Assembly: GCF_000003815.2 (NCBI RefSeq)
Contig: NC_049979.1
Coordinates: forward strand, 1,159,865-1,223,864
Source of the DNA: Branchiostoma floridae
Lineage: Eukaryota; Chordata; Leptocardii; Amphioxiformes; Branchiostomatidae
DNA length: 64,000 nucleotides
Reading direction: 5' to 3'
The position numbers and the translations under genes are program-made. The notes beneath the pieces were generated by a model. That model searched no databases. It was not told where the DNA came from and worked only from the letters and a program-made list of their open reading frames with translations. Numbering within the stretch: the stretch's first letter is position 1; each line of letters starts with the position of its first letter. Shown here piece by piece: positions 24,057 to 63,689 of the stretch.

Positions 24057-24828
24057 GACAACAGTTCTAACCAACCTGTAAAGAACAAATACAAAAAAAC
24101 ACATGTCAGTTGAATTTGTGGCATAGAATGAAAATTTAACAAATGTATGGTGAAGATACCAACATACATGAAACATACTGAATTGGGGCTTTAAACAGTC
24201 CCCGAGTTCAAGCCAGGGTACTGCCCGTCGACCCTGTACATGTGCCTCATCCTCTATGTTGCATCTCCTAGTCATACGAAGGAAAATTTGGGTAATAAAC
24301 TAAAGTAAAAAAAAAATTAAAAACAAACAGTATTCAGGTATAAACTGTTGCAAGATGAAAATATGCACCATTTTGATTTGCGCGCAATACTAGTACCATG
24401 CTATGTCCATGGGCAGCCTGCTACGCTTTCGCCTGTGTCTCCAAAGACAACCGTCACAGTAGCGAAGCTGTAAACATGTACGCTGTGTTACAAGCTTTTT
24501 GATTGGCTGAAAGTCTGACTTCTCGGTTGTATGTCAGAGGTGAACCTATCAACGCACAGGACACAAAATGGCATTCGGCATCGACTCGATAATAGCAGCT
24601 GAGACATCATGCGGCAGTAAATCGGCCATGCGTTCGACCAATTGGCGCTCAAGGAAGAAGTTGCCCGCCATGGAATGAACGAGATTGATACATTTTCACA
24701 CAAAAACATTATCTTCAGAAAATTGGACCTCGGAATCTTGCAAATTCAACAGTGAACGGACGTGTTCAAGCTACGCAAGACATTTTTGTACATTTGTATA
24801 CCTGTTAAAATGCCCACAATTAGCCATT

Positions 24829-30756: not shown

Positions 30757-31479
30757 GACAACAACAGTTCTGACCAATCTGTAAAGAACAAAATACAACA
30801 TTTATTTTACTGAGTTTGTTCAATAGAACGAAAATTTAAACACTGCATGGTGAAGATGCCGACAAACATGAAACATACTGTCGTAAAAAGTTTGGTTGGT
30901 AGATCAATTGAACAAGGTCTTCTTCGTTACACAACCTCCTTTTTTTCTCAGTACGAAACATACTGGATTGGGACACTTTGAACAGTCCCAAAATTTGGGG
31001 ACAGTTTTTACATGTTTGACTGACTGACTAGGTGTCAAAGATATAAAACACACGTGGGAACACAATTGCATTTTAGGACCTGTTCTTGATGCAAAAATCA
31101 AAATAGTTTCATTCGTTTTGGAAATCTGAGCCAGATTCATTTTTTGTTTTGGCGTTGCCCACAGCACCAAGACATACAGACAAAGTGGTTCCTCAAGTGG
31201 TTCCTAAATCAATCAATCAATGGTTTGTTGGATGGACCAACTACTTTCAAATTCCCTCTTTCGCGGCCCCGCCAGTTTTAGACCTCCCTTTTAGGCACCT
31301 GTTTTTGTTTGTGGTCCTCACAGAAAGCACCTTATATTTGGTAGATTGAACGAATGAAGTTGATATTCCTTTGAATGGAGCAGCATATAATCCACTCAAT
31401 TATCTCGCAATAAAATTTTGCATCAGCTATTCATTAAAATGAAATACTTAAACTTTTAAAGCATAACAAGGAAGTTAAT

Positions 31480-36100: not shown

Positions 36101-36391
36101 TTTTCTCTGCTGCTTGTAGTCCCTGCGCACGATGGGCACAGTCTCAGGGGGACCCTCGTTGTCCGTCAGCTCCCTGTCGCTCAGCACAGCTCCATTCGGG
36201 CCCACGTAGATCACCGTGTCGCAGGACTGCTCACTGCTCGACACGTCGTCCTTGTCGCTGATACCCAGGCCCGTTGTCGTGGCAACGTCTTCCCGGACGG
36301 ACTCAGAGATGAGCGGTCGGGACGGGCGGAAGTGCGGTCTTCTGATGCGACCCTCCTCACAAGAACTCTCCCCGCCAGATGAGCTGGAGTA
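33117..36391 (-). CDS. KIF26: KIF26-type kinesin, large tail exon (partial, runs into gap)
   Basis: On the minus strand the exon starts at 36391 after the acceptor TTTTGGCATTGCAG. The first residues [15 protein letters not shown], then [18 protein letters not shown] and [14 protein letters not shown], are hallmarks I know from vertebrate KIF26A/KIF26B immediately after the motor domain. About 1091 codons are open. The first third is acidic. The middle is Ser-rich and disordered-looking, with proline-rich runs ([14 protein letters not shown]). The end carries [19 protein letters not shown], also typical of KIF26. The exon runs into the gap at 33017-33116, so its 3' end is unseen. KIF26 proteins are atypical kinesins with little or no ATPase activity that bind microtubules and act in signalling (Wnt5a-Ror, GDNF-Ret; VAB-8 in C. 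elegans); that role is from the family. The C-terminal exons known in vertebrates are not visible in the window. Confidence 0.9.
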
Positions 36392-36689
36392 CTGCAATGC
36401 CAAAACAAAGTGTAAAACACTACCCTAAGTTGGAGAACCATGGCCAGGTTGGGCAAAATCAATTATTACCAGAAAGGTCTAGATATCAGTAGCTAGTACA
36501 CACTGAAGGAATAATAATCAGCTTGGCATACACAAAAACTAAAACGTAGTAAAAGTAAAAGGTCAAAACCAGCTTGGAAACAGATGTTGAGATGGTATTG
36601 TTTTATTGCCACGTAAACCGATAAAAAAAGACAGATTGACTTTGGCATTATCATGATTGTAAACAGTACAATACACATGGGTCACAGGT

Positions 36690-40877: not shown

Positions 40878-41760
40878 CTAAAGGCTCTTTAAGTCTTATA
40901 TACGTGTGCATTAAGAGGATATAATGTGTGTTTAGGTGCCTTTTCAGCAGCCTAAAGTTGCCATAAATACTTATTAAAACGCCCTTAAGACATGTTTAAA
41001 CTTCACGTTTATCTGATCTAAAGCCTCTTTACGTCTTATATACGTGTGCATTAAGTGGATTATAACGTGTGTTTATGTGCCTTTTCAGCAGCCTAAAGTT
41101 GCCATAAATACTTATTAAAACGCCCTTAAGACATGTTTAAACTTCACGTTTATCTGATCTAAAGCCTCTTTACGTCTTATATACGTGTGCATTAAGTGGA
41201 TTATAACGTGTGTTTATGTGCCTTTTCAGCAGCCTAAAGTTGCCATAAATACTTATTAAAACGCCCTTAAGACATGTTTAAACTTCTCGTTTATTTGATC
41301 TAAAGCCTTTTTACGTCTCATATACGTGTGCATTAAGTGGGTTATAACGTGTGTTTAGGTGCCTTTTCAGCAGCTTAAAGTTGCCATAAATACTTATTAA
41401 AACGCCCTTAAGACATGTTTAAACTTCACGTTTATTTGATCTTAAGCCTATTTACGTCTCATATACGTGTGCATTAAGTGGATTATAACGTGTGTTTATG
41501 TGCCTTTTCAGCAGCTTAAAGTTGCCATAAATTCTTATTAAAACGCCCTTAAGACATGTTTAAACTTCACGTTTATTTGATCTAAAGCCTATTTACGTCT
41601 CATATACGTGTGCATTAAGAGTCTATATTTTTCGTTTTAGCAGCTTAAAGTTGTCATATATACGCACTAAAATACCCTTAAGACATGTTTAAAGTTCCCT
41701 CTGTACGTCTCATATACGTATGCATTAAGTTGATTATAAGGTGTGGATAAGTGCCAATTT
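40878..41760. repeat. 141-bp satellite array, about 6 units
   Basis: Units start CTAAAGCCTCTTTACGTCTT and contain CCTTTTCAGCAGCCTAAAGT and ACGCCCTTAAGACATGTTTA. Period 141 measured between 41018 and 41159. The last units (after about 41590) are shortened and diverged. It is bordered by assembly gaps on the left (to 40877) and near the right (41872), so its real length is unknown. Confidence 0.93.
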
Positions 41761-42818
41761 AACAGAATAATCATAAGCACGTTTCCAAGCAAGAAAATAC
41801 AATGGATGACACTTTGAAATTTTATTGAATCAGGAGAAAATATTACATGGAAAAGTAATAAAAAAAAACTANNNNNNNNNNNNNNNNNNNNNNNNNNNNN
41901 NNNNNNNNNNNNNNNNNNNNNNNNNNNNNNNNNNNNNNNNNNNNNNNNNNNNNNNNNNNNNNNNNNNNNNNNNNNNNNNNNNNNNNNNNNNNNNNNNNNN
42001 NNNNNNNNNNNNNNNNNNNNNNNNNNNNNNNNNNNNNNNNNNNNNNNNNNNNNNNNNNNNNNNNNNNNNNNNNNNNNNNNNNNNNNNNNNNNNNNNNNNN
42101 NNNNNNNNNNNNNNNNNNNNNNNNNNNNNNNNNNNNNNNNNNNNNNNNNNTGTTCAGCTTGCAGTCTCGGCTTCGATTAATCCGGATGGTACAAGGGTCG
42201 TGATTTCCCATTCTGTGTCGATTTCCAACAGCATCAACTTGTACAGAATGATAGCCACCTCCTCTCTTTGCGTCAAATTCCGTCAACGGGGGTCCTAAGC
42301 GGTAACAGCCACAACTTGCGGATTAGAACAGGTCCAAACGTTCTTCAATACTTCTCTTCAAATGAACGCCTGGAAAATAACCGCTCCGTGCCAGTAAATT
42401 TGAACCCCCACTCTTTTCTGCCATTGGATACATCCTATCACATGACACAGCCCCTGTGTATGTATAGTATGCCGGCCACAGACGGAGGCGCGCCCCATGC
42501 CGCATACCCGTACGAATTAACGCTGAATAAATTTACATCTAGCCTGCCCACGCATATCACAATAACCAAAACAAAAACGAGCAACACGTGAAGACTCTGC
42601 CTGTGTACCCAGACTGTTCTTTCTTGACTCTTGCTTGCAGATGAAGAAGTAAACATCATTCGTACATTTACTTGTAGAAATACTCGCCGTTTAATAATAA
42701 GAAAAACATAACAGAAATACGTAACATTTCATATACGTCTTGGCAACATATTAGCTAAACGGGGGAGGTCTCCCCTAGTTCGCTTAAACTGCGCGGATTC
42801 AAAGATTAAACATGTCGT

Positions 42819-42917
42819 TAGCCTGATTAAATCTCGCTTATAGCAGCCCGCCCAACATCCGCCGGCCAACTGGGCCAGTTACAGCCCTGGACAGCGGAGT
42901 TTGTGTTACACAGACTA
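42819..42917. mobile_element. 99-bp MITE in the 116-bp satellite array, copy A
   Basis: TAGCCTGATTAAATC at the left; the reverse complement of the right end is TAGTCTGTGTAACAC. Target duplication ACATGTCGT (42810-42818, 42918-42926), which is part of the satellite unit. Confidence 0.9.
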
Positions 42918-44071
42918 ACATGTCGTATGTTCAACAGAAATACGCAACATTTCATGTACGTCTTGGCAACATATAAGCTAAACGGGGGTGTTCTCCCCTA
43001 GTTCGCTTAAACTGCGCGGATTCAAAGATTAAACATGTCGTATGTTCAACAGAAATACGCAACATTTCATATACGTTTTGGCAACATATAAGCTAAACGG
43101 TGGAGGTCTGCCCTAGTTCGCTGAAAGTCTTAAACTGCGAAGATTCAAAGATTAAACATGTCGCATGTTCAACAGAAATACGCAACATTTCAGATACGTC
43201 TAGCAACATATAAGCTAAATGGGGGAAGTCTCCCCTAGTTCGCTTAAACTGCGCGGATTCAAAGATTAAACATGTCGTATGTTCAACAGAAATACGCAAC
43301 ATTTCATGTACGTTTTGGCAACATATAAGCTAAACGGGGGAGGTCTCCCCTAGTTCGCTTAAACTGCGCGGATTCAAAGATTAAACATGTCGTATGTTCC
43401 ACAGAAATACGCATTATTTCATGTACGTTTTGGCAACATATAAGCTAAACGGGGGAGGTCTCCCCTAGTTCGCTTAAAACTGCACGGATTCAATTGAAAG
43501 ATTAAACATGTCGTATGTTTGACAGAAATACGCAACATTTCATATACGTTTTGGCAACATATAAGCTAAACGGGGGAGGTCTCCCCTAGTTCGCTTAAAC
43601 TGCGCGGATTCAAAGATTAAACATGTCGTATGTTCAACAGAAATACGCAACATTTCATGTACGTTTTGGCAACATATAAGCTAAACGGGGGAGGTCTCCC
43701 CTAGTTCGCTTAAACTGCGCGGATTCAAAGATTAAACATGTCGTATGTTCAACAGAAATACGCAACATTTCATGTACGTTTTGGCAACATATAAGCTAAA
43801 CGGGGGAGGTCTCCCCTAGTTCGCTTAAACTGCGCGGATTCAAAGATTAAACATGTCGTATGTTCAACAGAAATACGCAACATTTCTTGTACGTTTTGGC
43901 AACGTATAAGCTAAATGGGAGAGGTCTCCGGGACCGTCTCCCCTAGTTCGCTTAAACTGCGCGGATTTAAAGATTAAACATGTCGTATGTTTGACAAAAA
44001 AACGCAAAATTTCAAATACGTTCTGGCAACATATAAGCTAAACGGGGGAGGTCTCCCCTAGTTCGCTTAAA

Positions 44072-45100
44072 AGTAGCGGCCACAGCGGACATGTATGCTG
44101 ATGACACATCAGCCTACATATGCGCTCCTTCTATTGAAACTATCTCACATAATCTACAGACAGAGGTAAACAACATCTGTAGCTGGGTAAGAGTGAACCG
44201 GCTTTTCTTGAACACTTCAAAAACAAAATGTATTGTACTGGGGAGCAAGCCCAAAATGTCTGCTAAACCCAAACTCACATTAACTGCAAATGGTAAGGTT
44301 ATCGAACAGGTCTCAGAGGTAAAACTACTTGGTTCGACAGTAGATGAGTGCCTTACCTGGAATACTCACACAAAATTAACATCTAAGAAAATGGCTAGAT
44401 CACTGGGGATGATCAAAAGATGCGCATACCTTATGGATCAAACATTGTTAAAAATTGTAATAGAATGCCTTGTACTATCACACATCGATTATTGCAGCCC
44501 AGTTTGGTCATGCACAACTAAAACTAACATAAACCTTCTGCAACGAATGCAGAACAAGGCAACTCGTCTGTTTCAGTCGAAGCCACAGTGGAAACCTGTG
44601 CACACGAGATTGTTAATAAACACCATGACAACATTTAAAAGGATAACACTCACAAACGAACCCATTTGTATCAGTAGGCAACTGCGTTCGGTCAACAACT
44701 TGCATAGTTACAGAACCCGTTTTGCTGCTAAACAATCTTTTCTGTTAGAGAAACCTAGAACTAACGCACTGATGAAGTGTTTCATGTACAGGGCTGTCAG
44801 TGTGTGGAATAACCTTCCAATTGTCATGCAATCCACACAATCCCTGAGAGTGTTTAAGGATGGTTTGCACAAATACTTCCACCAGTAGTTACAAGCACTG
44901 TGCGACAGGATTGTCAATTTTTAAATTATGTATATTGTAAATATGTTATTGATTTAGATGTGTTTGTGACTTGTCTAGTTGCCAACCATGTTTGTATAAT
45001 GTATTGTCTCTGTGAATGAATACCAGGAAGACTAGCGGTGGACCCTAGGGTCCACCGCTAATGGTTATTCTAATAAAGTTTCAAGTTTCAAGTTTCAAGT
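44072..45100 (+). mobile_element. 5'-truncated non-LTR retrotransposon (reverse transcriptase 3' half)
   Basis: The open frame 44091-44888 (265 residues) begins at the catalytic motif YADD and continues with the thumb region (VKLLGSTVDECLTW) and the C-terminal segment common to CR1/L2/Rex-like LINEs (VLSHIDYCSPVW, LLQRMQNKATRLF, RAVSVWNNLP). The rest of the RT and the endonuclease are absent, which is typical 5' truncation. The 3' UTR has a perfect 28-bp palindrome (45033-45060), a TAATAAAG signal and a terminal tandem TTTCAAG repeat instead of poly-A. It is inserted in a satellite array; the flanks CGCTTAAA and GCGCGG rejoin the unit with no obvious target duplication. Confidence 0.88.
45033..45060. 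other. Perfect palindrome in LINE 3' UTR
   Basis: 28 bp with each half TAGCGGTGGACCCT mirrored exactly. As RNA it would form a stem just before the heptamer tail. LINEs of the L2/CR1 group use a 3' stem-loop for recognition by their reverse transcriptase (established); the role here is inference. Confidence 0.7.
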
Positions 45101-45243
45101 GCGCGGATTCAAAGATTAAACATGTCGTACATTCAACAGAAATACGCAACATTTCATATACGTCTTGGCAACATATAAGCTAAACGGGGGAGGTCTCCCC
45201 TAGTTCGCTTAAACTGCGCGGATTCAAAGATTAAACATGTCGT

Positions 45244-45342
45244 TAGCCTGATTAAATCTCGCTTATAGCAGCCCGCCCAACATCCGCCGGCCAACTGGGC
45301 CAGTTACAGCCCTGGACAGCGGAGTTTGTGTTACACAGACTA
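45244..45342. mobile_element. 99-bp MITE in the 116-bp satellite array, copy B
   Basis: Identical in layout to copy A, with the same target ACATGTCGT at 45235-45243 and 45343-45351. Same position in the satellite unit, so it was probably copied with the array rather than inserted twice. Confidence 0.9.
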
Positions 45343-45659
45343 ACATGTCGTATGTTCAACAGAAATACGCAACATTTGATATTCGTTTTGGCAACATATA
45401 AGCTAAATGGGGGAGGTCTCCCCTAGTTCGCTTAAACTGCGCGGATTTAAAGATTAAACATGTCGTATGTTCCACAGAAATACGCAAAATTTCAACTACG
45501 CTCTGGCAACATATAAGCTAAACGGAGGAGGTCTGCCCATGTTCGCTTAAACTGCGCGGATTCAAAGATTAAACATGTCGTATGCTCAACAGAAAAACGC
45601 AACATTTTATATACGTCTTGGCAGCATATAAGCTAACGGGGGAGGTCTTCCTTGCGTAC

Positions 45660-47440
45660 ACGGCGGTTCGAAATAAATTATACATGGCTCATATTCAACA
45701 GAAAAACGCTACATTTCATATGACGTAAGGGAGCGCATATAAGCCAAAAGTAAGAGGTCTTCCCTGTTCGAATTAAACCTTGCGCACAGAAAGATTGAAT
45801 ACGTCATATGCTTTCGGAACAAACAACACAGAAGAGTATTTCATTTGACTTTGCTGAGGTATTAACATAACATTTTGTACCGGAAAACGCAATTGTCAGT
45901 TTTGACTGTAAACCTTGCCACTGTTTTAAAACAGATGATGCAATGCTTTATCAAACACCAGACAAAGGCTTATTATATTTGACATGGCCGAGGTAAGTTT
46001 GGTAAACTAAACATGTATTTTGTAACAGATCTAGAGAAACGGTATTTGTGAGTTTTGACAGAAAATATAACCACAAAACAGTAATACGGAATATCTTTTA
46101 TAACTTTTTAAGACATTTAAGTTCTCTTTTCGGCATACTAAAATAGATGTAAAATTCACGTAAAGAAACACGACAGATTAAGTAACATTTACAAACGCTG
46201 AAATCTTACGTAAAGGCCAGATGTATGTTTCCGATGCCTTTAATAGATCTTAAAATCTTCTGAAATATTTCTCCGCCTTTAAGGGCTTTATACGTATCTC
46301 TGAAACTTTGCTTAAATAGTTGTTTTCGTGCTGTGTTAAAACCAAGTGTCAAAACAATTTCTCATGTATCAGCGTGGTACCTGAAACAGTAAAACAAGAT
46401 GAGAGGAAGGGAAATTAATGTAACGTTAACACTTCGCCAAAGTTTTACCTGGCATATTTATTGTACCCCACCCACATTTTTTTTACCCATCCCTTAAAAA
46501 CAAGCTTAGGTCTAATCAATGAGTATGATGCTGATACCGATAATGCAACACCTGCTTGGTTCCCAAAGGCTGCTATCTCATTTCCTGTGGGAAACCTGTC
46601 TATCTTTTTTACCTAAGAACCTAACGAGTATGCAATTCATATTTATTTAGAGCACCACATAGAATTTCAGCCAATGAAATGCTTGAATACGAGGGTGAGT
46701 CAGAAAGTGATGCAAGTGATTTTGTAACACGCTCATTTTTCAATCGAACGAGTTATAAGTTAGCACACAGGTAAAGGCAGATACCCTCTTGAGATTCAAC
46801 TATCTAGATTTGATTTTCATCATTTTAAGGGCACCTGAATTGATTTCAAAATGACCACACCCTTTGACGCTTGTCAGACGATCAATTCCTCCAAATCTGA
46901 CACACTTACAGTTACTGTAGGACGTTAAAATTACACATGAATAATAACAAATGTCTTTAGAGGTTGCATGCTAATTTGGATGCAAGGATGGAGTAAGTTG
47001 TGATATTGATATTTATGGCCGAATTCGTGATTGTTGATTAAAAGTGTTTGTAGACTACTTTTCCAATTCCCAAAAGAAACGAACCTTGACACATTTAGTA
47101 ATTATTCAGGGGCCAAGATATGCGCTCGTTTTTATTCCTCTTAGTGGAAAAATGGGCTACAGAAACTTTCAATCAACACACCACAAATTCCGTGACCCAA
47201 ACGACCGCTTATACCTCACTCTATACCAGCAATGAGCAAAGAAAAACTCATTGGATTTTAAAGAGAAATGCAGTTTACTACATGTGCAGGTTCAGTCTCA
47301 TACAATAGCCAAAAATGGGATAAGGAAATTCTTAACTGTACGTTAATTGGACCTCACTTATCTTCTGGCGTGATTCCAAGGGTGTGGTCATCTTGAAATC
47401 AGCTCAGTCAGCTTGGTAGAGCCAAATTAGGTGTTCTTTG
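45660..47440. other. Intergenic region upstream of polycystatin
   Basis: AT-rich and without supported genes. The part from about 46370 on is duplicated at 54.9 kb. Confidence 0.5.
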
Positions 47441-47495
47441 TATCTCAGTTCCTGTTTTATATGTTCTTAAAGGCACTAAACAAACAAAAGTACTG

Positions 47496-47504
47496 TATTT
47501 AAAG
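47496..47504 (+). promoter_or_regulatory. Possible TATA-like box of the polycystatin gene
   Basis: TATTTAAAG lies 52 bases upstream of the ATG, in a stretch (about 47430-47556) that is nearly identical in the duplicated copy at about 55425-55553. The equivalent position in the copy reads TACTTAAAG. The spacing would give a short 5' UTR. The TATA role is inference from sequence and position only. Confidence 0.35.
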
Positions 47505-47556
47505 CGGACATGAACAGGACGTCATCCATTTCGTGTGGAAGCAGAAGTGTAACAAC

Positions 47557-50500
47557 ATGAAAGTTCTACTGTGTCTGTTGGTGAGCCTGTCCGTGGCTCT
47601 GGCCGAGAAGACGCGTGTTGGCGGGGCCGTGGAGATGACTGCGGCCGAGCTGGCCGACCCAGCCCTGCTGGAGATCGCCAACTTCGCTGTCAGCAGGATC
47701 GACGAGTGGACCAACGGCATTTACAGGTCCAAACTGGTGCAGGTTCTGTCAGGCAAGCGACAGGTAGGGGCATCTTCTCTAGATGCAGAAGTTAGGTGTA
47801 GCAGGTCGTTCAGTGTAATATAACCAGCTGCTACCGCGCCGCCTGCCTGCGAAGTTGGTGTGTTACGCCGAAGGGCGGTTATACCGGCTATATAGATACA
47901 GATACAGATAGAAAAGGAGTCTCTATTTTCCATACATATACATCCCGACTAAAGTCATGTCCCCGGGCCAATCTAGTCGCACATCTCAGGTAGTGAACTA
48001 AATAGTTCCGTTTTGTTGGTGAGGCTAGACTGCTGTGCAGCCAGTACCGACTATGAACACAATACTAACAGATTCCCGCTACAACCAAGGCGAAAATACA
48101 TGATGCCGTAGGACTAAGATATGAATAGAAGACTCGTCTTTGACATGTCGTCCTGTGGGCTGCCATTTTTATATGCCGCGAGATTGGATCTATTTATCCA
48201 ACTACCGTTACTTATCCATGAAGTTAACATTGCATCATAGCCAAGTAGGAAAAGAAGTCACGGAATTATGTATGCCTTTATACGAGGTCACTGTGTTTTG
48301 GTCAAAGCTCTCTTGTTGAGGCAAATAGTTGGGTCTACAGCATCGTGCTGATGGTATTTGTGGCGATAAGGCTTGTGAAGAAGAATTTTATTTTTCTGAG
48401 GGTGGAAAAGGGTGCAAATGTCACCGTCAGATCAATTCAGTCACTGTATCGACAAACCTCACAGCACTGATCACAAAAACAGAGCAAATAGTTTGCAAAC
48501 ACAAAAAACACTGTTATCGCCTTGTTGTTCGGTATCGGGGTTCAATCTTGTAGGTACATGATGGTCATAGAAGCGTCATTTTATCACAATGCAATCATCT
48601 ATCTACGCTATTTGCAAATGGTACGTCAGGAGCCAAACATATTTACTTCTGAAGACAAAAATGACGAAAGCTCTGCAAATACTTTTAGTTAATCGTATTT
48701 GCAGGGGCCTCGCGCGTAATTGCTGAGGAGATGATTATTTTATCTCTGGTCCTGCGTAAGTAGTATAAAACAACAATGCAAACATTCGACCAAAAGCTTG
48801 CTCAGCAGTTTTCTGTGCTTACTAATAGGGCCTTCACACGGAAATCGAATTAGCAGGAATCAAGCCGAACCAGCCGGAATGAAGTATTTGCAAACTTCGT
48901 GTCACATTCGGGGCCATTCGGGTGGGAATTCCAAATGGGCCTTAAATCCCCATCACACGAGAAGGAATGAGCCGGAATGCCGTCAGAATGAAAATTCTTG
49001 TCTATTCCTGTGAATTCGCAGTGCATTCTAGACATTCTTACGGCATTCGAAATATTCTTTCGGCCACATTCTGGCAGGATTCGAGGTGGGTTGCCGTTTC
49101 GGTTCTCCATCGAATGAGATAAGAATGTATCGAATAATGTTGGAATGCCGTAGAATGCGGTCAGACTGCAGTCAGAATAGTTAGAATACACTAAGAATCC
49201 ACAACGAATGCCATTCGATATTTCTCCACTTCGAATGCACCTCGACAGTTTTTAACATGTCAAAAACTTTCGAGCCAGCCAAAAGAACGGGGACGAATAT
49301 CTCGAATGCAGTAAGAATGTTTAGAATGCAGTACGAATTGCGAGGAATTGCCACGAATAGGAAAAAAATTTCACTCGGATGGCATTCCGGCTCATTCGTG
49401 CTCTCGTGTGAAGGGGGCTTTAGTTGTTACTAGACAAATGATAACCTGGCATGGTGACGTTAAATTGAACTAACATAGGGTCCCTGTCCGACGATGATAT
49501 CGTTGGAACGCCACCAGCTCGAGAACTACTCAATGGAACGACAACTCAACACCTAACAGGCTGTGAAAACGAAGATGCGCTAAGGGTAAAAAAACGTCAT
49601 AAAATGGGTAGATAATGAGTAATACCATATCACACGGCACTGACGGCAGTGTGCAGAATTATGTGGAAGTCAGGTGTGCCTATTCGTGGTAGGGTTTACC
49701 CCCATGGATATAGGCAAATTCAATTAACTCCAGATGTGAATATTTCCCTTTCAGATTGTGGACAAGTACATCCTTGAATTGGAAAAGGCCACCACTACCT
49801 GTCCCAAGATGGGTATGATTACATTGGAGGACTGTCCTCTGCACCCGGACTACACGGTCAGTTACATACATGTACCATATAATATATCATTTCGTCTTGG
49901 CCATGGGAAACTTTGAGAGTAATGTAGCGAAACCAACTACAAACGTTAGTGTTTGCTTTGCATACAATATTGAAATCCTAGTCCTGCTATGTGCAACAAT
50001 TATGTCATTGCACATACACAATGCCAGTATGTGGGTCCTGTATTGTTATGGGTTTGGGGTATTCCCCACCTTAATGTATCATACCGCAGCAAAGCGCATC
50101 AAATGGGGAAGGAACTCAGAATAGGTCACGTTTTATTGATCTGATTAATAAATCAGCTTGGGTGTGTGTGTGTGGGGGGGGGGGGGTGCTTGGTTGGTAG
50201 ATAAGCAACAGAATCCCAGCAGGACAAGGGTTAACGTTAAGTATTGGAGTATCTGACATTAGATTGGTACGCTGGATCGGAAGCTACACATCTGCTTTAT
50301 GACTACAATGTAACCATGTGCAATGCGCCGATATGGAAAACTTTCTTGAAGGATTCATGTTAACGTTACCTCTAATGTTTTGAGTGACAAACCAACCAAC
50401 AGTCAGATAGCTACCTGGAACGTTGGTTGCTTACAGTGTTATGTTGACCGTTTCCCCCAGAACGAGATCTGCCACGTGGAGGTTTATGTCGTTCCGTGGA

Positions 50501-53500
50501 CCGGAGAACGCGAAGTGCTGGAACAGGGCTGCAGACAGAAACCGGCCAAGCGCTTCTTCAGCGACATGATCCAGGTTGACCCTTCGGACGGTTCTGCCAT
50601 GGCTGCAGCTCTCTTCGCCGTGGACCAACTCAACGCCGGGAGCGATTCCCTGTACCTCAGCAAGCTGCTGCGCGTGAACAGCGCACAGATGAGGGTAAAA
50701 CCCTTGCGTGAAGACAATCAGCACATTCTTATTTATAGCGTTAGATAGACAGATGAGTTCAGAAGATCAATATTATCAGAGGCTGCGCCTATCATTGACA
50801 TGGGTCTTAATTAAACTTATAAAGATTGATTATGACAGCAAATAAAACAATATCAATGGTGCACATCATGTATCTTTACTGTCCTCAAAATAAACAGAGT
50901 AACTGTAACAAACTGAACGTACTTCAGAATCCCCTCTGCTCCCCACATAGGGACATGAAGTATAGAATCCTCTATCTATAAAAACACAATCTTGAAAACC
51001 CTATCTTAAAACTTACCAAGGAATGGTTTGTTAATATGCACCGAGCCACAGATAGCGCCCACTATATGACAATATATTCTATGAATCTAAATGATGTTGC
51101 TACCTACTTTGGTCTGTCTTCAGGTTGTATCAGGCATTACCTACTTTGTGCAACTGGAGATGGGCACGACTGTCTGCGCCAAGGGCGACAACCAGATCCT
51201 GGCTGACTGCGAGTTCAGCTCGAACGCACAGGTACAGTTTCCTTACATCAGAATTACAAATACTTTATATATGAGGACCAACACAACACAACACATAGCA
51301 GTGCTTCTGCATTTTCTTCATTTTAGTTTTTCCACGGTTGAAGAGGTTGACATAATGACATTACCTTTCCAGTTTTCTCTATCTATTATGCATGTGGCAC
51401 GGTGATTTTGTTTTCCAGTTCCAGGCGTGCGATGTGAGTGTGTACAACAGTGGGAATAACTTTTTGAGGCTCACCAGCTCGTCCTGTAGGACCCCGCGGT
51501 CAAAGCGGCAACTGATGCCAGGCGGTCTGAACGGAGGACATCACCCCACGGACACCAACAGCCAAAAAGTGTTGGAGATGGCAGCCTTCGCTGTGGACAC
51601 CATCAACGATCAAAGCAACTCCATGTACCTCAGTAAACTGGTCCATATCCACAGTGCCAGCACTCAGGTTGGTTGTATTCAGTTCCTTCTCAAACACACA
51701 CAAGTCCATATATATATATATATATATTTGCCCTGTGTCGACGTCCGTGAAAAAATTGTCGAAAACGAAGGAAACCGTACAGAATTTTCCCAATGTAGGG
51801 ACCGTCTTTCATACAATTTTGCAACTGAAGTAGAATAAATGATTCCAATGCGCCGGACACCATGCACACTCATTTGTAATGACCTTCCTTCTTATTTATA
51901 TAAAAATGAATTAAAGCACCCCACCTTTGGGTTTTCAAAGGTTGTTGCCGGTATTAACTACCACTTGGAACTGGAGATCGGTGCCACCACCTGCTCCAAG
52001 GGAGACTCCGCCAGTCTAGAGGACTGTGACCTCGACCAGAACGGACGAGTGGGTGTTGCTGCTGTTGTTGTTATATGTTCATCATCATCACTATTTACAT
52101 GTTATATGTTAATGTCACATCTTGTGTATGTGTGTGTTTGTAATGGGGGGGGGGGGCAACGCTATGTCGCCAATTAAAGTTAACCAACGCCATATTCAAG
52201 ATTCAAGTTAAAATCCATTAGGTAGATGATATTCATACTGATAGCTCGTAGTCCGGTTTAGACCTCACTTCTGTATGTGTTTTGCCCCTGATGTATCCAG
52301 GTTGAGATCTGTATGGTGACTGTGTTTGACCAATCTTGGACCGGGACCCGTGAAGTCACCTCAATGACCTGCAGCCCTAAGGTAAGGCTAGACATGCGCA
52401 CACGTGCCTGCTTTCTTTGGTGCTGAAATACGCCTTTTTTGGGCCATGGGACAAAATGTTTTCGTTTTCTATTTAGCTATGTCAAGGATATGTCACAACA
52501 GGAGATACCATTTGCTGTAAAAAAAATCGCAACAATCTGCTGAAAATAATTTTTTTTGCTGTTAATTGATCAATCATGCTTACTATGTACCGCTTGCGGC
52601 ACCAAAACTGGCAAAAGCATTTCCTAATGTGTTACAAAATTTACAATATTGCACTGATATCCAGGTTGCTGTAAAGCGGCAGTTCATGCCGGGAGGACTG
52701 ATGCCTGCAGACACTAACAACCAAGGCATCCAGCATCTCGCCTCGCTGTCAGTGGACCACATCAACACCATGAGGAACGCTCCCACCCTCAGTAAGCTGG
52801 TGGAGGTCACCAGCGCGCAGTATCAGGTGCGAGGAAAAAGTTGATCATGCAAGGGCCACGTTTGTACTAGCCTCCACCAGACCGTCCTATGAAGGGGTGT
52901 GGGGATCGTAGAATTCGGTAGAAATTGGAAAATTGGCCAGGAGAGTCAGTCCACGCTTAGGTTCAGATCTCCTCACCGGAGACCAATTCCTCTGGTAGCA
53001 AAACTCCCCTGCAAAGCATTTGGTGTCCTAAAATGGCCAGCATAGTCAGTCTGGTAGAGACTACGTTTGTACTGTAAGGACAGCAATCTAGCAAGAAAAG
53101 ATACCGATATCTAGCAGCTTTTTTCTTCATAACTTCAGGTTGTGGCAGGTATGAAGTACTACCTGACGATGGAGATCGGCACCACCAGCTGCTCCAGCAG
53201 CGACAGCACCGTCCTGTTGTCCGACTGCGCCGTCCTGCTCGGTGGCGGGGTTCGTAATATTAACACCCTTGGATGCTTGATTTCTTTGAAAATTTACTTC
53301 TAGAAACAAGGGCGATCCCGGGAAGAATTCGTACCAACATAGACAACAATAAAATCGTATACGATACGTCGCTATACGATTACGAGTAAAGCAAACTTAA
53401 TGCACTAGTCATGTCAGCTTTATTTGGGTCTACTCATATTGTTAATCTACTGCAGATCGAGACAATGTAAATTTATAGTGAATGTAAATCTTCATTCCTT

Positions 53501-53721
53501 ACCAATGTTTTAATTGAGATCGCTTTACTTTGGACAGCTCTACCCACCCACGTCATTACATTCTGGATTCTATTGAAAACAGTTTTACTGTAACTGACAT
53601 TTCCTCCTTGTATGTGCCCCCACAGCGCGAGATGTGTGACGTAGAAGTGTTGGACCAGCCGTGGATCGGGGAGCCACAGGTCCTGAACTTCTCCTGTACG
53701 CCCAAACAGCTCTTTCCGTGA
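47557..53721 (+). CDS. Secreted four-domain cystatin (polycystatin), ten exons
   Basis: I recognise four tandem type-2 cystatin domains, which are reversible inhibitors of papain-like cysteine proteases. Exons, all GT-AG and phase 0: 47557-47763, 49755-49856, 50461-50694, 51124-51231, 51419-51667, 51941-52048, 52301-52381, 52665-52826, 53139-53249, 53626-53721 (stop TGA); 485 residues. The start MKVLLCLLVSLSVALA is a clear signal peptide; an in-frame ATG 24 bases upstream is less likely because it would bury it. Each domain has four cysteines spaced as in type-2 cystatins (85/96/107/127; 199/210/221/240; 318/329/340/360; 435/447/458/478). QxVxG site: domain 1 QIVDK (Gly lost), domain 2 RVVSG, domains 3 and 4 QVVAG. 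PW loop: present in 1 (PW 115-116) and 4 (PW 466-467), SW in 3, absent in 2. Domains 3 and 4 begin with MPGGL, like the stefin N-terminus. Dibasic KR sites precede domains 2, 3 and 4. The exon 9 donor (GTTCGT) and exon 6 acceptor (CAAAG) are the weakest boundaries. Confidence 0.88.
47791..47910 (+). repeat. Short interspersed element, copy 1 (intron 1 of polycystatin)
   Basis: About 120 bp. It matches 54598-54717 over most of its length and 5123-5182 over its second half. The core reads GTAATATAACCAGCTGCT, then GGTGTGTTACGC, then GGTTATACCGGCTATATAGA, and it ends in a GATACA-type short tandem tail. A short element with a simple-repeat tail in three unrelated places suggests a SINE-like or MITE family. 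I see no clear tRNA head and no target duplication. Confidence 0.6.
48828..49420. mobile_element. About 590-bp MITE with TA target duplication and GAATGC-rich interior (polycystatin intron 1)
   Basis: Left end GGGCCTTCACACG; the reverse complement of the right end reads AAGCCCCCTTCACACGAGAG. TA lies on each side (48826-48827, 49421-49422). The interior is crowded with variants of GAATGC, CATTCG and GAATTCG on both strands, which gives it internal complementarity. Superfamily not assigned. TIRs of this GGGCC(T)TCACACG type are common in invertebrate MITEs, as I recall. Confidence 0.7.
52868..53063. mobile_element. MITE with TAG...CTA ends and 9-bp target duplication (polycystatin intron 8)
   Basis: 196 bp. 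Left end TAGCCTCCACCAGAC; reverse complement of the right end TAGTCTCTACCAGAC. Flanked by the 9-bp direct repeat CGTTTGTAC at 52859-52867 and 53064-53072. It carries no coding sequence, so it is non-autonomous. It lies inside intron 8 and does not touch the splice sites. Confidence 0.9.
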
Positions 53722-54590
53722 GAGCATACTGGACATCACCAAGGGCCACTACAAACATGAGGAAACTGTTATTCACATATGAACATCATTGTTCCAATTG
53801 ATATCGCATATATAATATTGTTCCCACGTCACATTTTTCATGCATGATGACTCGATATATTATTTGGGTTATCTTTAATTAAGAAATGCTAGTTCTGCCA
53901 AAGATACAGTCAAGTGATGTACGGCGTCGCGTGTAGCCCTCAGTAAACTGTAAGTTATGGTGCCGTAATGTTCCTGAGTGTGTGATTCACTTGCTTTGTC
54001 ATTATATCGAATAGGCCGTCGCAATGGTCGCTTTTTTACTTCCCGATGTTGTCCAATGATGACACACGCAGAAACATATCCTGGCGCTCAGCAGCAAATT
54101 AGATTACGTATCTTGTATACAGACAAGGCAATTTTCACGTACACATGCGCCATGCTCTCCTAAGTTGTGTACGTGATAATGAGGTTATAAACATTACGTC
54201 ATGCAGCCTGTAGAGAAAAGTACATTTACCGACACGATAGGTCGGAGAAATCTATGATATCATCTATATCATACGGAAGGTAGATTATGAATGCTCTTTG
54301 AAAAGGAACTATGTTGACCGGTACGCGAGTAGGACTGTTTACACGTGACATCATGTGTGGCATTTACCGTTATATCCAGTCAGATATGCAGAATCCGTTT
54401 ACGTGTGCTCAAAGTTTGTTTAGTTACCGCCAACGCATATATACGCAAACGCTGAAAATCATGGAACAGCTGGCAACACGACGTGCACAGAACGATCAGG
54501 GAAAATCACGCACTATCTGATTGGCAGTATCCATTTACCGCGAGGCCCAACACACTGAGATAATCATCATAACGCAAACCTTGACCAATA
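53722..54590. other. 3' flank of polycystatin
   Basis: No canonical AATAAA close to the stop codon and no further cystatin exon seen. No other gene recognised. Confidence 0.45.
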
Positions 54591-54597
54591 TACAAAA

Positions 54598-54717
54598 GTT
54601 AGGTGTGACGGGTCCTTCGGTGTAATATAACCAGCTGCTGCCGCGCTGCTTGCCTGCGAAGCTGGTGTGTTACGCTGAAGGGCGGTTATACCGGCTATAT
54701 AGATACAGATACCGAAG
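54598..54717 (+). repeat. Short interspersed element, copy 2
   Basis: Near-full-length match to the element at 47791-47910, with the same core and GATACA tail. It sits just outside the left edge of the duplicated polycystatin block (about 54910). Confidence 0.6.
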
Positions 54718-54909
54718 GACGTAGGTGATTTCTGAAATTTATTGCATCGATTATAAAAACAGCTACCGCGAAAAAGTGCATTATGGCGCAGCTGTGTGCA
54801 GAGGACATACCAAACTACATATGATAGCGGCAAAGGGGAAATACAGATACAGATGCGAACACTCATCACATCGAACAAAAACAATACTCTGTCGCCGGAG
54901 GTTACTCTC

Positions 54910-56420
54910 CGGTCACAGAGTAAAAGGATGAGAGGAAGGGAAATCAATGTAACGTTGCCACTTCCCAAAAGTTTCACCTGGCATATTTACTGTACCCCAC
55001 TAACATTTTTTTGCACATCCCTTAAAAACAAGGTCGAATCAATGAGCTTGATGCTGATACCGATAGTGTAACACCTGTTTGGTTCCCAAAAGCGGCTGTC
55101 TTATATCCTGTGGGAATATGTCTAGCTTTTGTTCTTAGGAACTTACAGGTATAGAGTTCAAACGTAGAATAAGGGCCAGTAATTCTGCGTTTTTTTCTAT
55201 ATATTTAGAGCACATAGAAGTTCAGCCAATGGCATACACGTACGTGAAAACAAATTACGTACAATTCCTTCAATACAGACGACTCTTCACTCTACGGAGG
55301 CGTCAGCTCATCAACACCTGATTGACGAATCTCTTGACAGCATACTCTCTGCCTGGTTTTTCTTTTTTGAGATGCTAAAATGTTAATTATTCAATACAAA
55401 GCTTTTAATAGATAGAGCCAAATTTAGGTGAACTTTGTATCTCAGTTCCTGCTCGTATATGTACTTAAGACACTAAGCAAACAAAAGTGCTCTACTTAAA
55501 GCGGACATGAACAGGACGTCATCCATTACGTGTGGAAGCAGAAGTGTAACAATATGAAAGTTCTACTGTGTCTGTTGGTGAGCCTGTCCGTGGCTCTGAC
55601 GGAGAAGACGCTTTATGGCGGGGCCGAGGAGATGACTGCAGCCGAGCTGGCCGACCCAGCCCTGCTGGAGATCGCCAACTTCGCTGTCAGCAGGATCGAC
55701 GAGTGGACCAACGGCATTTACAGGTCCAAGCTGGTGCAGGTTCTGTCAGGCAAGCGGCAGGTAAGCAGTCTCCTTTGTTCATACATGCATGTCCTGTCCC
55801 CGGGCCAATCTAGTCGGACATCTCAGGAAGTGAACTAAATAGTTTCGTTGTGTTGGCGACGCTAAACTGTTGCTCAGCCAGTGTTGACTATGAACACAAT
55901 TGCAATTGACAGATCCCTTGCTATAATCGGACGAAAAGACACGATGCTGTAGGACTAAGATATGAATAGAACACTAATGATCACTAATGTCTTTGACANN
56001 NNNNNNNNNNNNNNNNNNNNNNNNNNNNNNNNNNNNNNNNNNNNNNNNNNNNNNNNNNNNNNNNNNNNNNNNNNNNNNNNNNNNNNNNNNNNNNNNNNNN
56101 NNNNNNNNNNNNNNNNNNNNNNNNNNNNNNNNNNNNNNNNNNNNNNNNNNNNNNNNNNNNNNNNNNNNNNNNNNNNNNNNNNNNNNNNNNNNNNNNNNNN
56201 NNNNNNNNNNNNNNNNNNNNNNNNNNNNTTTTGGGGCGATAAGGCTTGTGAAGGAGAATACAATTTTGCCACGGGTGGAAAAGGTGCAAATGTCAGCTCA
56301 ACTCCGTCACTGTATCCACAAAACTTACAGCCCTGATGACAAAAATGGTGCAAATAGTTTGCAAACGCAAAAATACTTTTATCGCCTTGCTTCCTGTGCA
56401 CCACACGACACTGATGACTC
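54910..56420 (+). repeat. Segmental duplication of polycystatin promoter, exon 1 and part of intron 1
   Basis: Collinear similarity with 46370-48540. Anchors are the GATGAGAGGAAGGGAAAT stretch (46400 and 54927), the whole exon 1, the block starting GTCCCCGGGCCAATCTAGTC (about 47955 and 55796) and the GCGATAAGGCTTGTGAA block (about 48363 and 56235). The short interspersed element in intron 1 of the first copy (47791-47910) is missing from the second, so the copies differ by at least one insertion or deletion. Confidence 0.75.
55554..55760 (+). pseudogene. Duplicate polycystatin exon 1 (signal peptide plus first cystatin segment)
   Basis: This is a second copy of exon 1: 69 codons, same signal peptide, ending SGKRQ followed by a good donor GTAAGC at 55761. 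It differs from the first copy at a few residues after the signal peptide (TEKTLYGG against AEKTRVGG) and otherwise keeps the frame. The duplication also covers the upstream flank and the first part of intron 1 (about 54910-56420 against 46370-48540). I find no cystatin exon 2 in the rest of the window, so the copy is either truncated or continues in a gap (55999-56228 is missing). It could still be an alternative promoter and first exon of a rearranged gene downstream. Functional status is unknown. Confidence 0.6.
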
Positions 56421-59400
56421 AATGAGAACCGAGCAGCTGTGACCTGCCAGTCAGCATTTTCTACGAGGTCTATAGAACGCTAGGATAGAAATTGTGCTGT
56501 TCATAAACTATGATGATATAGTCCCAGGCAAGCTCTTGCATGGCTTTCCTGAAATATCACTGCTTATATGATATTCATCATCATCATCATCATCGGTCGA
56601 CGTGCTTACACACGTAGGGGCTATACCGCCCCTCATGGGATATTGTAATAATCAAAATCTGCCAAAGTCGAGACAAATACCATGACAGTATTTGGTATTC
56701 NNNNNNNNNNNNNNNNNNNNNNNNNNNNNNNNNNNNNNNNNNNNNNNNNNNNNNNNNNNNNNNNNNNNNNNNNNNNNNNNNNNNNNNNNNNNNNNNNNNN
56801 GACAATCAACTGACTTGCCCCAGCATCTTGTCTGTATTCTTAGTAAGTATACACAAGAATGTGGGTCTGTCAAGGTCGTTCCAGATGTCAGTGTAGGTAG
56901 TACTCTTTCTCTGTGACCAAGGCCTCCTTTCTGTGACTGTGAGGTGAGTTCCTTACAATGGAGTGTGTGAGGTCGGCAGTCTTGCCCAAGGGACTGTGTT
57001 TTCCTTGGCCAAGGAGATATTTTGAGGGCCTGCGGTAATTACATTAGGGGAACTGATATCCGTGATATCCCAGGAATTTCCCATACAACCAGCCCAGGGT
57101 GAGGATCTGAGGCCCTGTGTACATAGTGAACAAGGTGAGCTTAAATCACTCCTTATCGTTCTGTCAGGAGAGAACAGGAGAGGAGAACGTAACCTTGCAG
57201 TTGGACGCTGAGGTAAGGATGTTGGATTTTGTGACTAGATGGTCTTTTGTTGAGGAATCTTGTGGAAAGATGATTTGAGGAGGGTAAACATGGGAGAAGG
57301 TCTTGACAAAACCAAGGAAGGCAATCAATTTTAGTTGCTTTGCTTCGAATTATGTGAAGGAGACTGCTTTCTCTACGAATTACGGCAAAAATACGCTGCC
57401 TACACTTTATGGAAAAGGGGGTCCTGGTCCTTATTGGAAAGGTAGTGCTAAACCTGTATATTCTAAACCTGTGTATATAAGTTAAGCTGACTTCAGGGAA
57501 TGGAAGGAATCCTTAGATGTGTTTAGACTGTCAAAGAAGGCTTATAACGAGTAAGAAATTTAGGTTACATGTAAACAAGAGCTGTTTGTCATTGTTGATA
57601 AAGTCTGCCTTCCATGTTTGGGCTAAATAGCTTTATTTATAGCCTTAGATTAGGCCACGTTGATTTGATTATATGGATGACATCCGCGCTCGCACCAATT
57701 TTCGGCCATTTCCAAAAAAAAAAAAAGTTTTCGACCACACAATAAATTGTGCAAAGCAGCTGTAAAATGAGCACAAATATTCCGTAGATTGAAAAAAAAG
57801 TACCAGAAAACAGATAACTAATGCCATATATAGAATGCNNNNNNNNNNNNNNNNNNNNNNNNNNNNNNNNNNNNNNNNNNNNNNNNNNNNNNNNNNNNNN
57901 NNNNNNNNNNNNNNNNNNNNNNNNNNNNNNNNNNNNNNCAATGAGATGCCCGCTTGAGTAGGACAATATGAAGTGGTGACGTCATCCAAACGAGGTTGAA
58001 CAAGAATCAGAAGCAGGCTTCCGTTCTGCTATTAAAAAAGTCTCATTTTTAAAGGGCGGCGTTAAATCATTTTAGCAATTACATGTATATTTTATACACT
58101 TTCTTCATGTTATTTTCTTTTCTGTCCTCGAATCGGAAATAGCTGAGCATATGCAGATATTGCATAACCATTGCCCGATAGGTTCGCTTGCGTTAGATAC
58201 TAAAAGCGTTGCTCTTTGTTTACCCTAAGGCCACTGCAAGTAAATTTTAGGGATTACTTCCTCTGCAGACTCTAAATTTAAAGCGAGAGGACGAATTAAA
58301 CAAGATGGGTAAAAAATCTAAATTAAAAAAAAGACACCATAAACGTTATGACAACAATTGCAGTGATAAAACATGGTATTACAATGAGACAACAAGTCTT
58401 TTATTCCTGTATTCAAGAAATGCACAAAGTGACACTTGTGTGATAGACTAGTATAATCTACCAAGTTGGCAACTACGCTCAAGGCTACCACACAAGTGTT
58501 AACTATCCAACTAGTTTTTCTTCTATAACTACAGTCATGGCTACCTCGCTAGTGTTACCGTCTACAAGTACAATCATTAGGCTATAACACAACATATTTT
58601 TTTTCTATTTTGGTACTTTCTCGTCATGTTGACCATCTCCAAAGAAGACAAAAATCTTTTTTTTCTGAAACCAGGCGGATGTCATCCATAAAATTAAGAT
58701 GCTGTGGTCTTAGGAAAAAATTAATGATGTCATCCATATAATACTTGCCGTGGCTATGTGTCAGTACAGCGTTTCAACTGAAGCATTACAATGTTTACAG
58801 ATTAAGTTCCTTACAAAATATTCTACAAGTCCTAGGATTGTTAGATATGGTAAGCTTTTTAGGTCAAAAATGTCAAGAATAAAAGAAAAATGTCGCGAGT
58901 CTTTTTTCTGACCTCCAGGACATTTAGACATGTTCTTGCTGTGCAGGGGTCATCGTCCATTTATACAAATATTCTCACAGTGATTTTCGGCTTTGAAAAG
59001 AGACACAAATTTTCCCACGTTGGCGCCAGAGAACCTCTGCCTCCCTACCTCTCCAACATGCGTCTGTCACGTACATATCACGCACCGGATGGGAAAATGT
59101 TTAATTATGGACCAATCAGGGTTTGACACGTCATCTATCTACCTGTGAGTCAGGCCAGATATCACTGTTGTCCACCGCTGGAAGATCATTCCGTGAGCAG
59201 AGACGACCGTTATCGGACAGAGGCAACTTTTCGGAGACCTATCTACCAGATACAGCGAGACATCGCACTGGGTTGTGGTACCTTGCCGCCGAGCCAGTTC
59301 TCAACTCAGGTAAGACATAAGCTTCAGACTCATTAAGTTTATATACAAAATTNNNNNNNNNNNNNNNNNNNNNNNNNNNNNNNNNNNNNNNNNNNNNNNN

Positions 59401-62328: not shown

Positions 62329-63525
62329 CTAAAAGCCTGTGTTCCTCAAACATTCAGCTTTTGTGTGAACTTGCTGGTGTCTCTTCAAAGTGTTCAGGTG
62401 ACGGAACCGTTTACTGCACAGTACACAGGTGTAGGGCTTCTCACCTGTGTGGGTACGCATGTGAGACTTTAGACTACCTGGCTCACTGAACTGCCTGCTA
62501 CACTCCTTACACTTGTAAGGTTTTTCACCTGTGTGAGTGCGCACGTGCGTCTTCAGAGTTGCCCGCTCACTGAACTGCTTGCTGCACTCCTCACACTTGA
62601 AGGGTTTTTCTCCTGTGTGAGTTTTCATGTGATTCTTCAGAGCACCTGTCTGCCTGAACTGTTTGCTACACTCTTCACACTTAAAGGGTTTCTCACCTCT
62701 GTGAATTCGCATGTGGGTCTTCAGATTACCCAGCTGACTAAATTTTTTGTTACATTCCTCACACTTGTAGGGTTTCTCCCCTGTGTGAGTTTGCATGTGG
62801 AGTTTCAGATGATCCAGTGCACTGAACTGTTTGCCACACTTCTCACACATGTAGGGTTTCTCCCCTGTGTGAGTTCGCAAGTGACTCTTTAGACTACTTA
62901 GCCCACTGAACTGCCTGCTACACTCATTACACATGTACGGTTTCTCCCCTGTGTGAGTGCGCATGTGGGCATTCAGAGTATCCAGCAGTTTAAACTGTTT
63001 GCTGCACTTCTCACACAAGTAGGGTTTTTCACCTGTGTGACACCGCATATGTTTCTTCAGTTTACTCAGCTCAATGAACTGCTTGCTGCACTCCTCACAC
63101 CTGTGGGGTTTCTCCCCTGTGTGAGTGCGCACATGACGCTTAAGACCACTCAGCTCAGAAAACTGTTTGCTGCACTCCTCACACTCGTAGGGTTTCTCCC
63201 CTGTATGAGTTCGCCTGTGTCTCTTCAGTGTAGTCAGCCTAGCAAACTGCTTACTGCACTCCTCACACCTGTAGGGTTTCTCACCTGTGTGAGTTCGCAT
63301 GTGCCTTGTCAGGTCTGCCGCCCCACTGAACTGCCTGCTACACTCCTCACACTTGTAGGGTTTCTCACCTGTGTGAGTGAGCATGTGCGTTTTCAGAGTA
63401 GCCATCGTACCAAACTGCCTGGTGCGCTCTTTGCACGGGTACAATTTTGTGGCGGACAGTTTTGTGGCGACCTCTCCCTCACCTCCGTCTTCAGCATCAG
63501 CACAACAGTTGCTATATGTTGCCAT
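62329..63525 (-). CDS. C2H2 zinc-finger protein, 13 fingers (ZNF copy 3)
   Basis: 398 residues in one coding exon. The start MATYSNCCADAEDGGEGE at 63525 follows an acceptor (TTGTCCTTTGCAG) at the same distance as in copies 1 and 2. Thirteen finger units. The first is degenerate (YPCKERTRQF: second cysteine lost), leaving twelve likely functional. TGEKPY/F linkers throughout. The tail KAECLRNTGF has no paralogous match. Third member of the family in the window, on the same strand. Its promoter and any 5' exon are beyond the right edge. Confidence 0.92.
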   Translation of the reverse strand: MATYSNCCADAEDGGEGEVATKLSATKLYPCKERTRQFGTMATLKTHMLTHTGEKPYKCEECSRQFSGAADLTRHMRTHTGEKPYRCEECSKQFARLTTLKRHRRTHTGEKPYECEECSKQFSELSGLKRHVRTHTGEKPHRCEECSKQFIELSKLKKHMRCHTGEKPYLCEKCSKQFKLLDTLNAHMRTHTGEKPYMCNECSRQFSGLSSLKSHLRTHTGEKPYMCEKCGKQFSALDHLKLHMQTHTGEKPYKCEECNKKFSQLGNLKTHMRIHRGEKPFKCEECSKQFRQTGALKNHMKTHTGEKPFKCEECSKQFSERATLKTHVRTHTGEKPYKCKECSRQFSEPGSLKSHMRTHTGEKPYTCVLCSKRFRHLNTLKRHQQVHTKAECLRNTGF

Positions 63526-63689
63526 GACAACAGCAGCCTACACCAATCTGCAAAGGACAAACGAAACAAAATTTCAGATTACACCATAGGTTAACCCTAT
63601 CTAGACCGGAGGGGGGGGGGCTCACTTGTCACTACACTACATCCAGTAGATTTCTAGTAAAGGACATGCCCACATAACCCTCAAGGGGC

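Follow-up and report, generated by a model that had tools for sequence, protein, structure and literature searches.

A four-cystatin precursor gene with dibasic interdomain linkers and its tandem three-domain sister gene in Branchiostoma floridae

The gene analyzed here lies on the forward strand at positions 47557-53721 of the window, the 64,000-nucleotide stretch of Branchiostoma floridae DNA used throughout this study. It consists of ten exons forming a single open frame, and all nine introns are of the GT-AG type and in phase 0. The product has 485 residues, with a signal-like start followed by four type-2 cystatin domains (D1 to D4). The gene model was re-derived and the domains were assigned with Pfam; the coordinates, ten exons and four domains proposed in a sequence-only reading of this DNA were recovered as written. 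The N-terminal start of the precursor, MKVLLCLLVSLSVALA, is hydrophobic and was judged signal-like by inspection alone.

Exon 1 (47557-47763, followed by a GT donor) encodes the signal-like start and the first half of D1, which is matched by Pfam; it also contains a KR pair (residues 67-68) at 47755-47760. The middle of D1 is encoded by exon 2 (49755-49856), which starts with IVDK where the sister gene described below (gene B) has VVAGYK, a difference of six bases. Exon 3 (50461-50694) carries the end of D1, linker 1 and the start of D2, exon 4 (51124-51231) the middle of D2, including RVVSG, and exon 5 (51419-51667) the end of D2, linker 2 and the start of D3. D3 continues in exon 6 (51941-52048), its QVVAG motif spanning the exon 5/6 junction, and ends with QSW in exon 7 (52301-52381). 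Linker 3 and the first half of D4 are found in exon 8 (52665-52826), the middle of D4 in exon 9 (53139-53249), with QVVAG spanning the exon 8/9 junction, and the end of D4 (QPW) and the stop codon in exon 10 (53626-53721). On the 3' side of the gene, neither AATAAA nor ATTAAA was found in 53722-55400. A tRNA scan and an Rfam scan at the gathering threshold returned nothing in the window.

Several other features surround the gene. Arrays of a 115-bp tandem repeat are located upstream, at 42917-44071 and 45342-45648. C2H2 zinc-finger open frames occupy the reverse strand at 22533-24299 (16 motifs, also recognized by Pfam), 29419-30801 (15 motifs) and 62332-63537 (12 motifs). A reading frame of 1102 codons on the reverse strand (33117-36424) and an open frame on the forward strand (44037-44885) had no Pfam match at E 0.001; the latter contains YADDT and is presumably a piece of a reverse transcriptase.

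A single gene is the simplest reading of the ten exons. D1 and D2 are joined inside exon 3 and D2 and D3 inside exon 5, so that only the D3-D4 junction is split by an intron. Alternatively, the exons might be divided among at least two genes, for instance one for D1-D3 and a separate one for D4, since the link between D3 and D4 depends on intron 7 alone and read-through of this intron would reach a stop after 14 residues. However, the 99 bases ahead of exon 8 contain neither an in-frame Met nor a signal-like stretch, and gene B shows the same D3-D4 junction with GT-AG sites. Because the domains share exons 3 and 5 and no start signal precedes exon 8, we consider such a division highly improbable.

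The whole protein matched the Pfam Cystatin family over four stretches (E 8.3e-63), and each domain scored above the cut-off of 22.2 bits when taken separately (D1, 37.9; D2, 55.7; D3, 69.6; D4, 59.7 bits). The top PDB matches by sequence were cystatin-M, a protein named CPI and cystatin-C. No C1A peptidase domain was present among the four Pfam families listed for the full protein (E up to 1). The domains contain 16 cysteines, four each, and a further one (Cys6) lies in the signal-like start. Values of dS among D1-D4 range from 0.79 to 1.70, nearly saturated at silent sites.

The four domains differ in their inhibitor motifs. D4 has all three (Gly-Gly, QVVAG and PW), and D3 has Gly-Gly and QVVAG with SW in place of PW. 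D1 has retained Gly-Gly and PW, but its loop reads QIVDK: the loop-1 Gly is gone and two residues are missing relative to gene B. At the DNA level, six bases at 49755-49770 of exon 2 are absent compared with gene B and with a related fragment (fragment A, see below), and the frame is still open. D2 has neither Gly-Gly nor PW, and its RVVSG lacks the Gln of QxVxG. In human cystatin SA2, a Gly-to-Asp replacement in the QxVxG motif is described, in the available text, as giving a weaker inhibitor (PMC10670837). The same text describes binding of legumain by a post-helix Asn in cystatins C, E/M and F (PMC10670837). At the legumain-inhibitor position D3 reads SNS, D1 TNG, D2 SDS and D4 RNA, and the SNS of D3 aligns with SNS of cystatin M and SND of CPI in the PDB sequence alignments. 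As judged from these motifs, D3 and D4, and not all four domains, look like complete inhibitors; D1 and D2, having lost key motifs, are probably weak or non-inhibitory.

Each of the three interdomain linkers contains a dibasic site. Linker 1 has KPAKR at 50539-50553 (KR at 50548-50553, residues 133-134), linker 2 has RSKR at 51497-51508 (residues 246-247) and linker 3 has AVKR at 52668-52679 (KR at 52674-52679, residues 367-368). These are the KR positions claimed in the sequence-only reading, which also correctly placed QLMPGG directly after the second pair and QFMPGG directly after the third. The segment that a cut would expose ahead of D2, FFSDMIQVDPSD, is devoid of Gly-Gly. Five, five and six residues separate the last Cys of D1, D2 and D3, respectively, from the K, placing KR 6-8 residues past the Cys. 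The statement that KR lies exactly in the linkers holds for these three pairs; it omitted a fourth, KR 67-68, which sits inside D1 just ahead of its QxVxG loop. Use of KR 67-68 as a processing site was considered and is thought unlikely, as the cut would fall within D1.

The placement of KR in the linkers is more than chance. When the cysteines were fixed and the other mature residues shuffled 200,000 times, no shuffle gave all three of D1, D2 and D3 a KR pair in the 10 residues following their last Cys, and 9 gave them a dibasic pair of any kind, a statistic that overstates the evidence because linkers of common descent do not count as three separate trials. Apart from K and R, no linker residue is identical across the three linkers. 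Furin cuts after R-X-[KR]-R. RSKR fits this rule, as had been proposed, and is the one linker site of three to do so, ahead of D3; KPAKR and VAVKR are plain KR sites with no Arg at P4.

These observations can be accommodated by an uncut, multi-headed inhibitor resembling kininogen, in which KR would be basic residues of flexible linkers copied along with the domains. The common ancestry of the linkers, the two sites of three without Arg at P4 and the presence of a KR pair outside the linkers are all consistent with it. Moreover, kininogen D2 and D3 inhibit within one chain, according to the accessible part of a kininogen study (PMC9382879); cutting is therefore not required for function, because such tethered domains inhibit unseparated. 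Set against this is the fact that, among copies that diverged anciently, KR is the sole part of the linkers to have been kept. This reading is a real possibility, although we find it rather doubtful. A third reading has extracellular proteases, trypsin-like or of another kind, cut the linkers once the protein is secreted, in place of convertases. Plain KR without furin context, at two sites here and at both sites of gene B, suits this proposal, and Trichinella MCD-1 offers a precedent in which, from the available text, a metalloprotease is implicated (PMC2680962). However, RSKR fits furin and no particular extracellular protease is indicated, which makes this reading improbable. Cleavage after KR by proprotein convertases is the reading that we prefer, and the related copies of the locus bear on it as well.

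The assembly (513,431,437 bases in 431 contigs) was searched for related genes; the counts that follow are lower bounds, since the best candidates alone were scored. With the full protein, at least 25 exon matches were recovered, of which 14 fall at 13.779-13.789 Mb of the contig that holds the window and the other 11 in the window itself. With the cystatin family, at least three matches were obtained, all in the window or at 13.779-13.789 Mb. No cystatin exons were found in 13760001-13769000 or 13789201-13809999 of that contig. The distant matches belong to a second copy of the window neighborhood, 12.6 Mb away (13768742-13785519 versus window 40942-56700), which aligns in collinear pieces separated by gaps, at 97.7-100% identity (window 40942-41871, 42151-43342, 52787-53893, 53881-55056, 55590-55998 and 56229-56700). 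Its sequence is compatible with either an unmerged haplotype or a recent segmental duplication. An 82% match to 13767852-13768456, upstream in the second copy, was also seen for the 3' flank of the cystatin gene (window 53817-54391); this is perhaps the remnant of a further tandem copy, and no cystatin exons were found near it.

Gene B starts 1.8 kb downstream of the four-cystatin gene. Its exon 1 is located at window 55554-55760 on the forward strand, and the rest is lost in the window at the gap 56701-56800. We considered this segment as a stray exon-1 fragment and rejected the idea, as it is 100% identical over 409 bp to 13784409-13784817 in the second copy, where gene B is complete from exon 2 onward. 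The predicted product has 372 residues and three domains of types D1, D3 and D4, with D2 absent. All three have Gly-Gly, QVVAG and PW or SW. Both linkers contain a dibasic site, KPTKR before QFGGLAGG and VAVKR before QFLAGG, neither of which fits R-X-[KR]-R, a point in favor of the uncut inhibitor. The non-linker KR 67-68 is kept in gene B as well. Fragment A (13779194-13780199), which lies between assembly gaps, is 97.8% identical to gene B and has KR in its one visible linker. It is of the three-domain type and occupies the spot expected for the four-domain gene in the second copy; domain number may thus be polymorphic, or fragment A may be misplaced. The finding of gene B, a tandem three-domain sister whose linkers are built like those of the four-domain gene, is new here, and is the addition of most value.

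Comparison of the two genes gives precise borders to D2. The last homologous base ahead of D2 is 50553, which closes the KR codons of linker 1; similarity starts again at 51521, four codons past the KR of linker 2. This break at KR indicates that a whole KR-delimited block containing D2 is either there or missing. The D2 unit, including its two introns (50554-51520), has no counterpart in gene B, and a DNA search, alongside which a protein search was also run, found no second occurrence in the assembly. Whether D2 was gained or lost, the resulting junction in gene B has exactly one KR, which argues against linker residues of no consequence in an uncut protein. The window gene and gene B differ little (dS 0.098, dN 0.028), while D2 is about as divergent from the other domains as these are from one another. 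Because D2 diverged anciently while the two genes differ little, its loss from gene B is likelier than a recent gain in the window gene. Retention of KR between the two genes is weak evidence for cutting, because divergence is low (dS about 0.10) and the non-linker KR 67-68 is kept too.

The nonsynonymous differences between the window gene and gene B are concentrated in the segments that follow the signal-like start or a KR (the trunks of the domains). These segments contain 10.5 nonsynonymous changes on 76 sites, versus 12 on 733.7 sites elsewhere, and 2.5 synonymous changes on 26 sites, versus 21 on 226.3 elsewhere. Fisher tests gave p 8e-6 for nonsynonymous sites and, depending on rounding, 0.007 or 0.02 for replacement versus silent changes; these values apply to small counts and to a 12-codon segment picked after the first differences had been seen. 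In this test D3 needs a two-residue gap, and a change at Ala16 of D1 falls outside both classes. With exon 1 taken by itself, four changes falling inside ten codons had a value of 0.006, again after the fact. The N-terminal segment of a cystatin touches the protease. The crowded replacements may reflect adaptation of target choice or relaxed constraint, and they are no proof of cutting.

Altogether, we think it somewhat probable that the gene encodes a secreted four-cystatin precursor and that proprotein convertases cleave it in the linkers, after KR. The signal-like start would direct the protein into the secretory pathway, where the exposed linkers would be cut, RSKR being the most secure site and KPAKR and VAVKR the less certain ones. 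A single cut, at RSKR, would yield two halves, one with the weak domains D1 and D2 and the other with the complete domains D3 and D4, a more specific expectation than the release of four individual inhibitors. Calculated without modifications, the intact protein has a mass of about 51 kDa, these halves would have 25.5 and 25.7 kDa, and fully separated domains 12.3-13.3 kDa. The cuts would leave four residues ahead of Gly-Gly on D3 and D4, and signal cleavage after Ala16 would leave five on D1. D3 and D4 would then inhibit papain-like proteases, D3 presenting in addition Ser-Asn-Ser at the putative legumain-inhibitor position. Domain gain or loss could proceed in blocks running from one KR to the next, as D2 illustrates.

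The earlier proposal of a secreted polyprotein cut into single inhibitors is upheld as regards one multi-cystatin precursor with a signal-like start, and the KR pairs in both linkers of gene B agree with it. Release of single inhibitors is not supported in the form proposed, given the missing inhibitor motifs of D1 and D2, the one furin-type site of three and the lack of R-X-[KR]-R in gene B. Narrowed to one furin-type site, two plain KR sites and two complete inhibitors, the polyprotein reading is plausible. More speculatively, and on balance unlikely, the locus might be an array of convertase-bounded cystatin cassettes resembling a neuropeptide precursor. Whole cystatins would be gained or lost from KR to KR, with trunks changing about 8 times faster than the rest, and the outcome would be a changing blend of cysteine-protease inhibitors with different targets, in which D1 and D2 of the window gene would be passengers or have other targets.

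The result is modest in so far as cystatin domains of this type and their tandem arrangement have been described before, as has, in a nematode, the processing of such a protein into pieces the size of a domain. In the open-access literature, nothing was found that connects multicystatins with dibasic sites, multiple cystatin domains with furin, or cystatin domains with proprotein convertases; among the wider matches listed, no title or opening of an abstract mentions processing of this kind, which is no proof of absence. As far as the available text goes, Kordis and Turk 2009 report cephalochordate multidomain cystatins of independent origin (PMC2784779). Tandem cystatin domains in a lancelet are common to that set and to the gene described here, which may be among those they counted; that text specifies neither individual genes nor numbers of domains nor cleavage sites. 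In arthropods, the accessible part of one survey mentions Daphnia and Rhodnius proteins with between two and eight cystatin domains (PMC3407033), and a Rhodnius cathepsin F is described with four (PMC3886914). These share the tandem domains, some having at least four ahead of a cathepsin (PMC3407033, PMC3886914); they come from another phylum, and many carry a C1A peptidase domain that is absent from the window gene. A multidomain cystatin of Fasciola (as cited in PMC4390278) likewise has several cystatin domains per protein, but in a flatworm.

A precedent for processing is Trichinella MCD-1/SML-2, a three-domain cystatin-like protein which, in the text available, is processed to pieces of 11-14 kDa with a metalloprotease implicated (PMC2680962). 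It resembles the present precursor in being a tandem cystatin-like protein, is secreted as is predicted here, and gives pieces of about domain size; it differs in coming from a nematode and in having three, weakly cystatin-like domains. Its authors deem its place among cystatins tenuous, and no papain inhibition is shown in that text (PMC2680962).

Kininogen has three cystatin domains encoded by exons 1-9, three exons per domain, as outlined in the available passages of two papers (PMC9382879, PMC8706920). Its D1 is stated there to be without inhibitory function (PMC9382879) and is credited with an action on atrial natriuretic factor (PMC8706920). Both proteins are tandem cystatins with three exons per domain, kininogen being secreted and the window protein predicted to be so, and the loss of inhibitor motifs in D1 of the window gene has a parallel in a kininogen D1 without cysteine-protease inhibition. 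However, kininogen continues after three domains with bradykinin and further domains, whereas the window protein ends with its fourth domain, and its gene lacks introns at the D1-D2 and D2-D3 junctions. The difference from kininogen asserted in the sequence-only reading is borne out: there are four domains, only 7 residues follow the last Cys, and neither RPPGF nor PPGF is present. A link between the linker KR and the kinin-release site of kininogen was also considered and has no sequence support. Should the linkers prove to be cut, one could test whether multi-cystatins function as intact proteins or through the inhibitors set free, and the adjacent three- and four-domain genes would form a natural comparison of unit gain and loss in multi-inhibitor proteins. 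The lancelet gene would then represent a chordate-side precursor that, in contrast to vertebrate kininogen, supplies several cystatins through dibasic processing.
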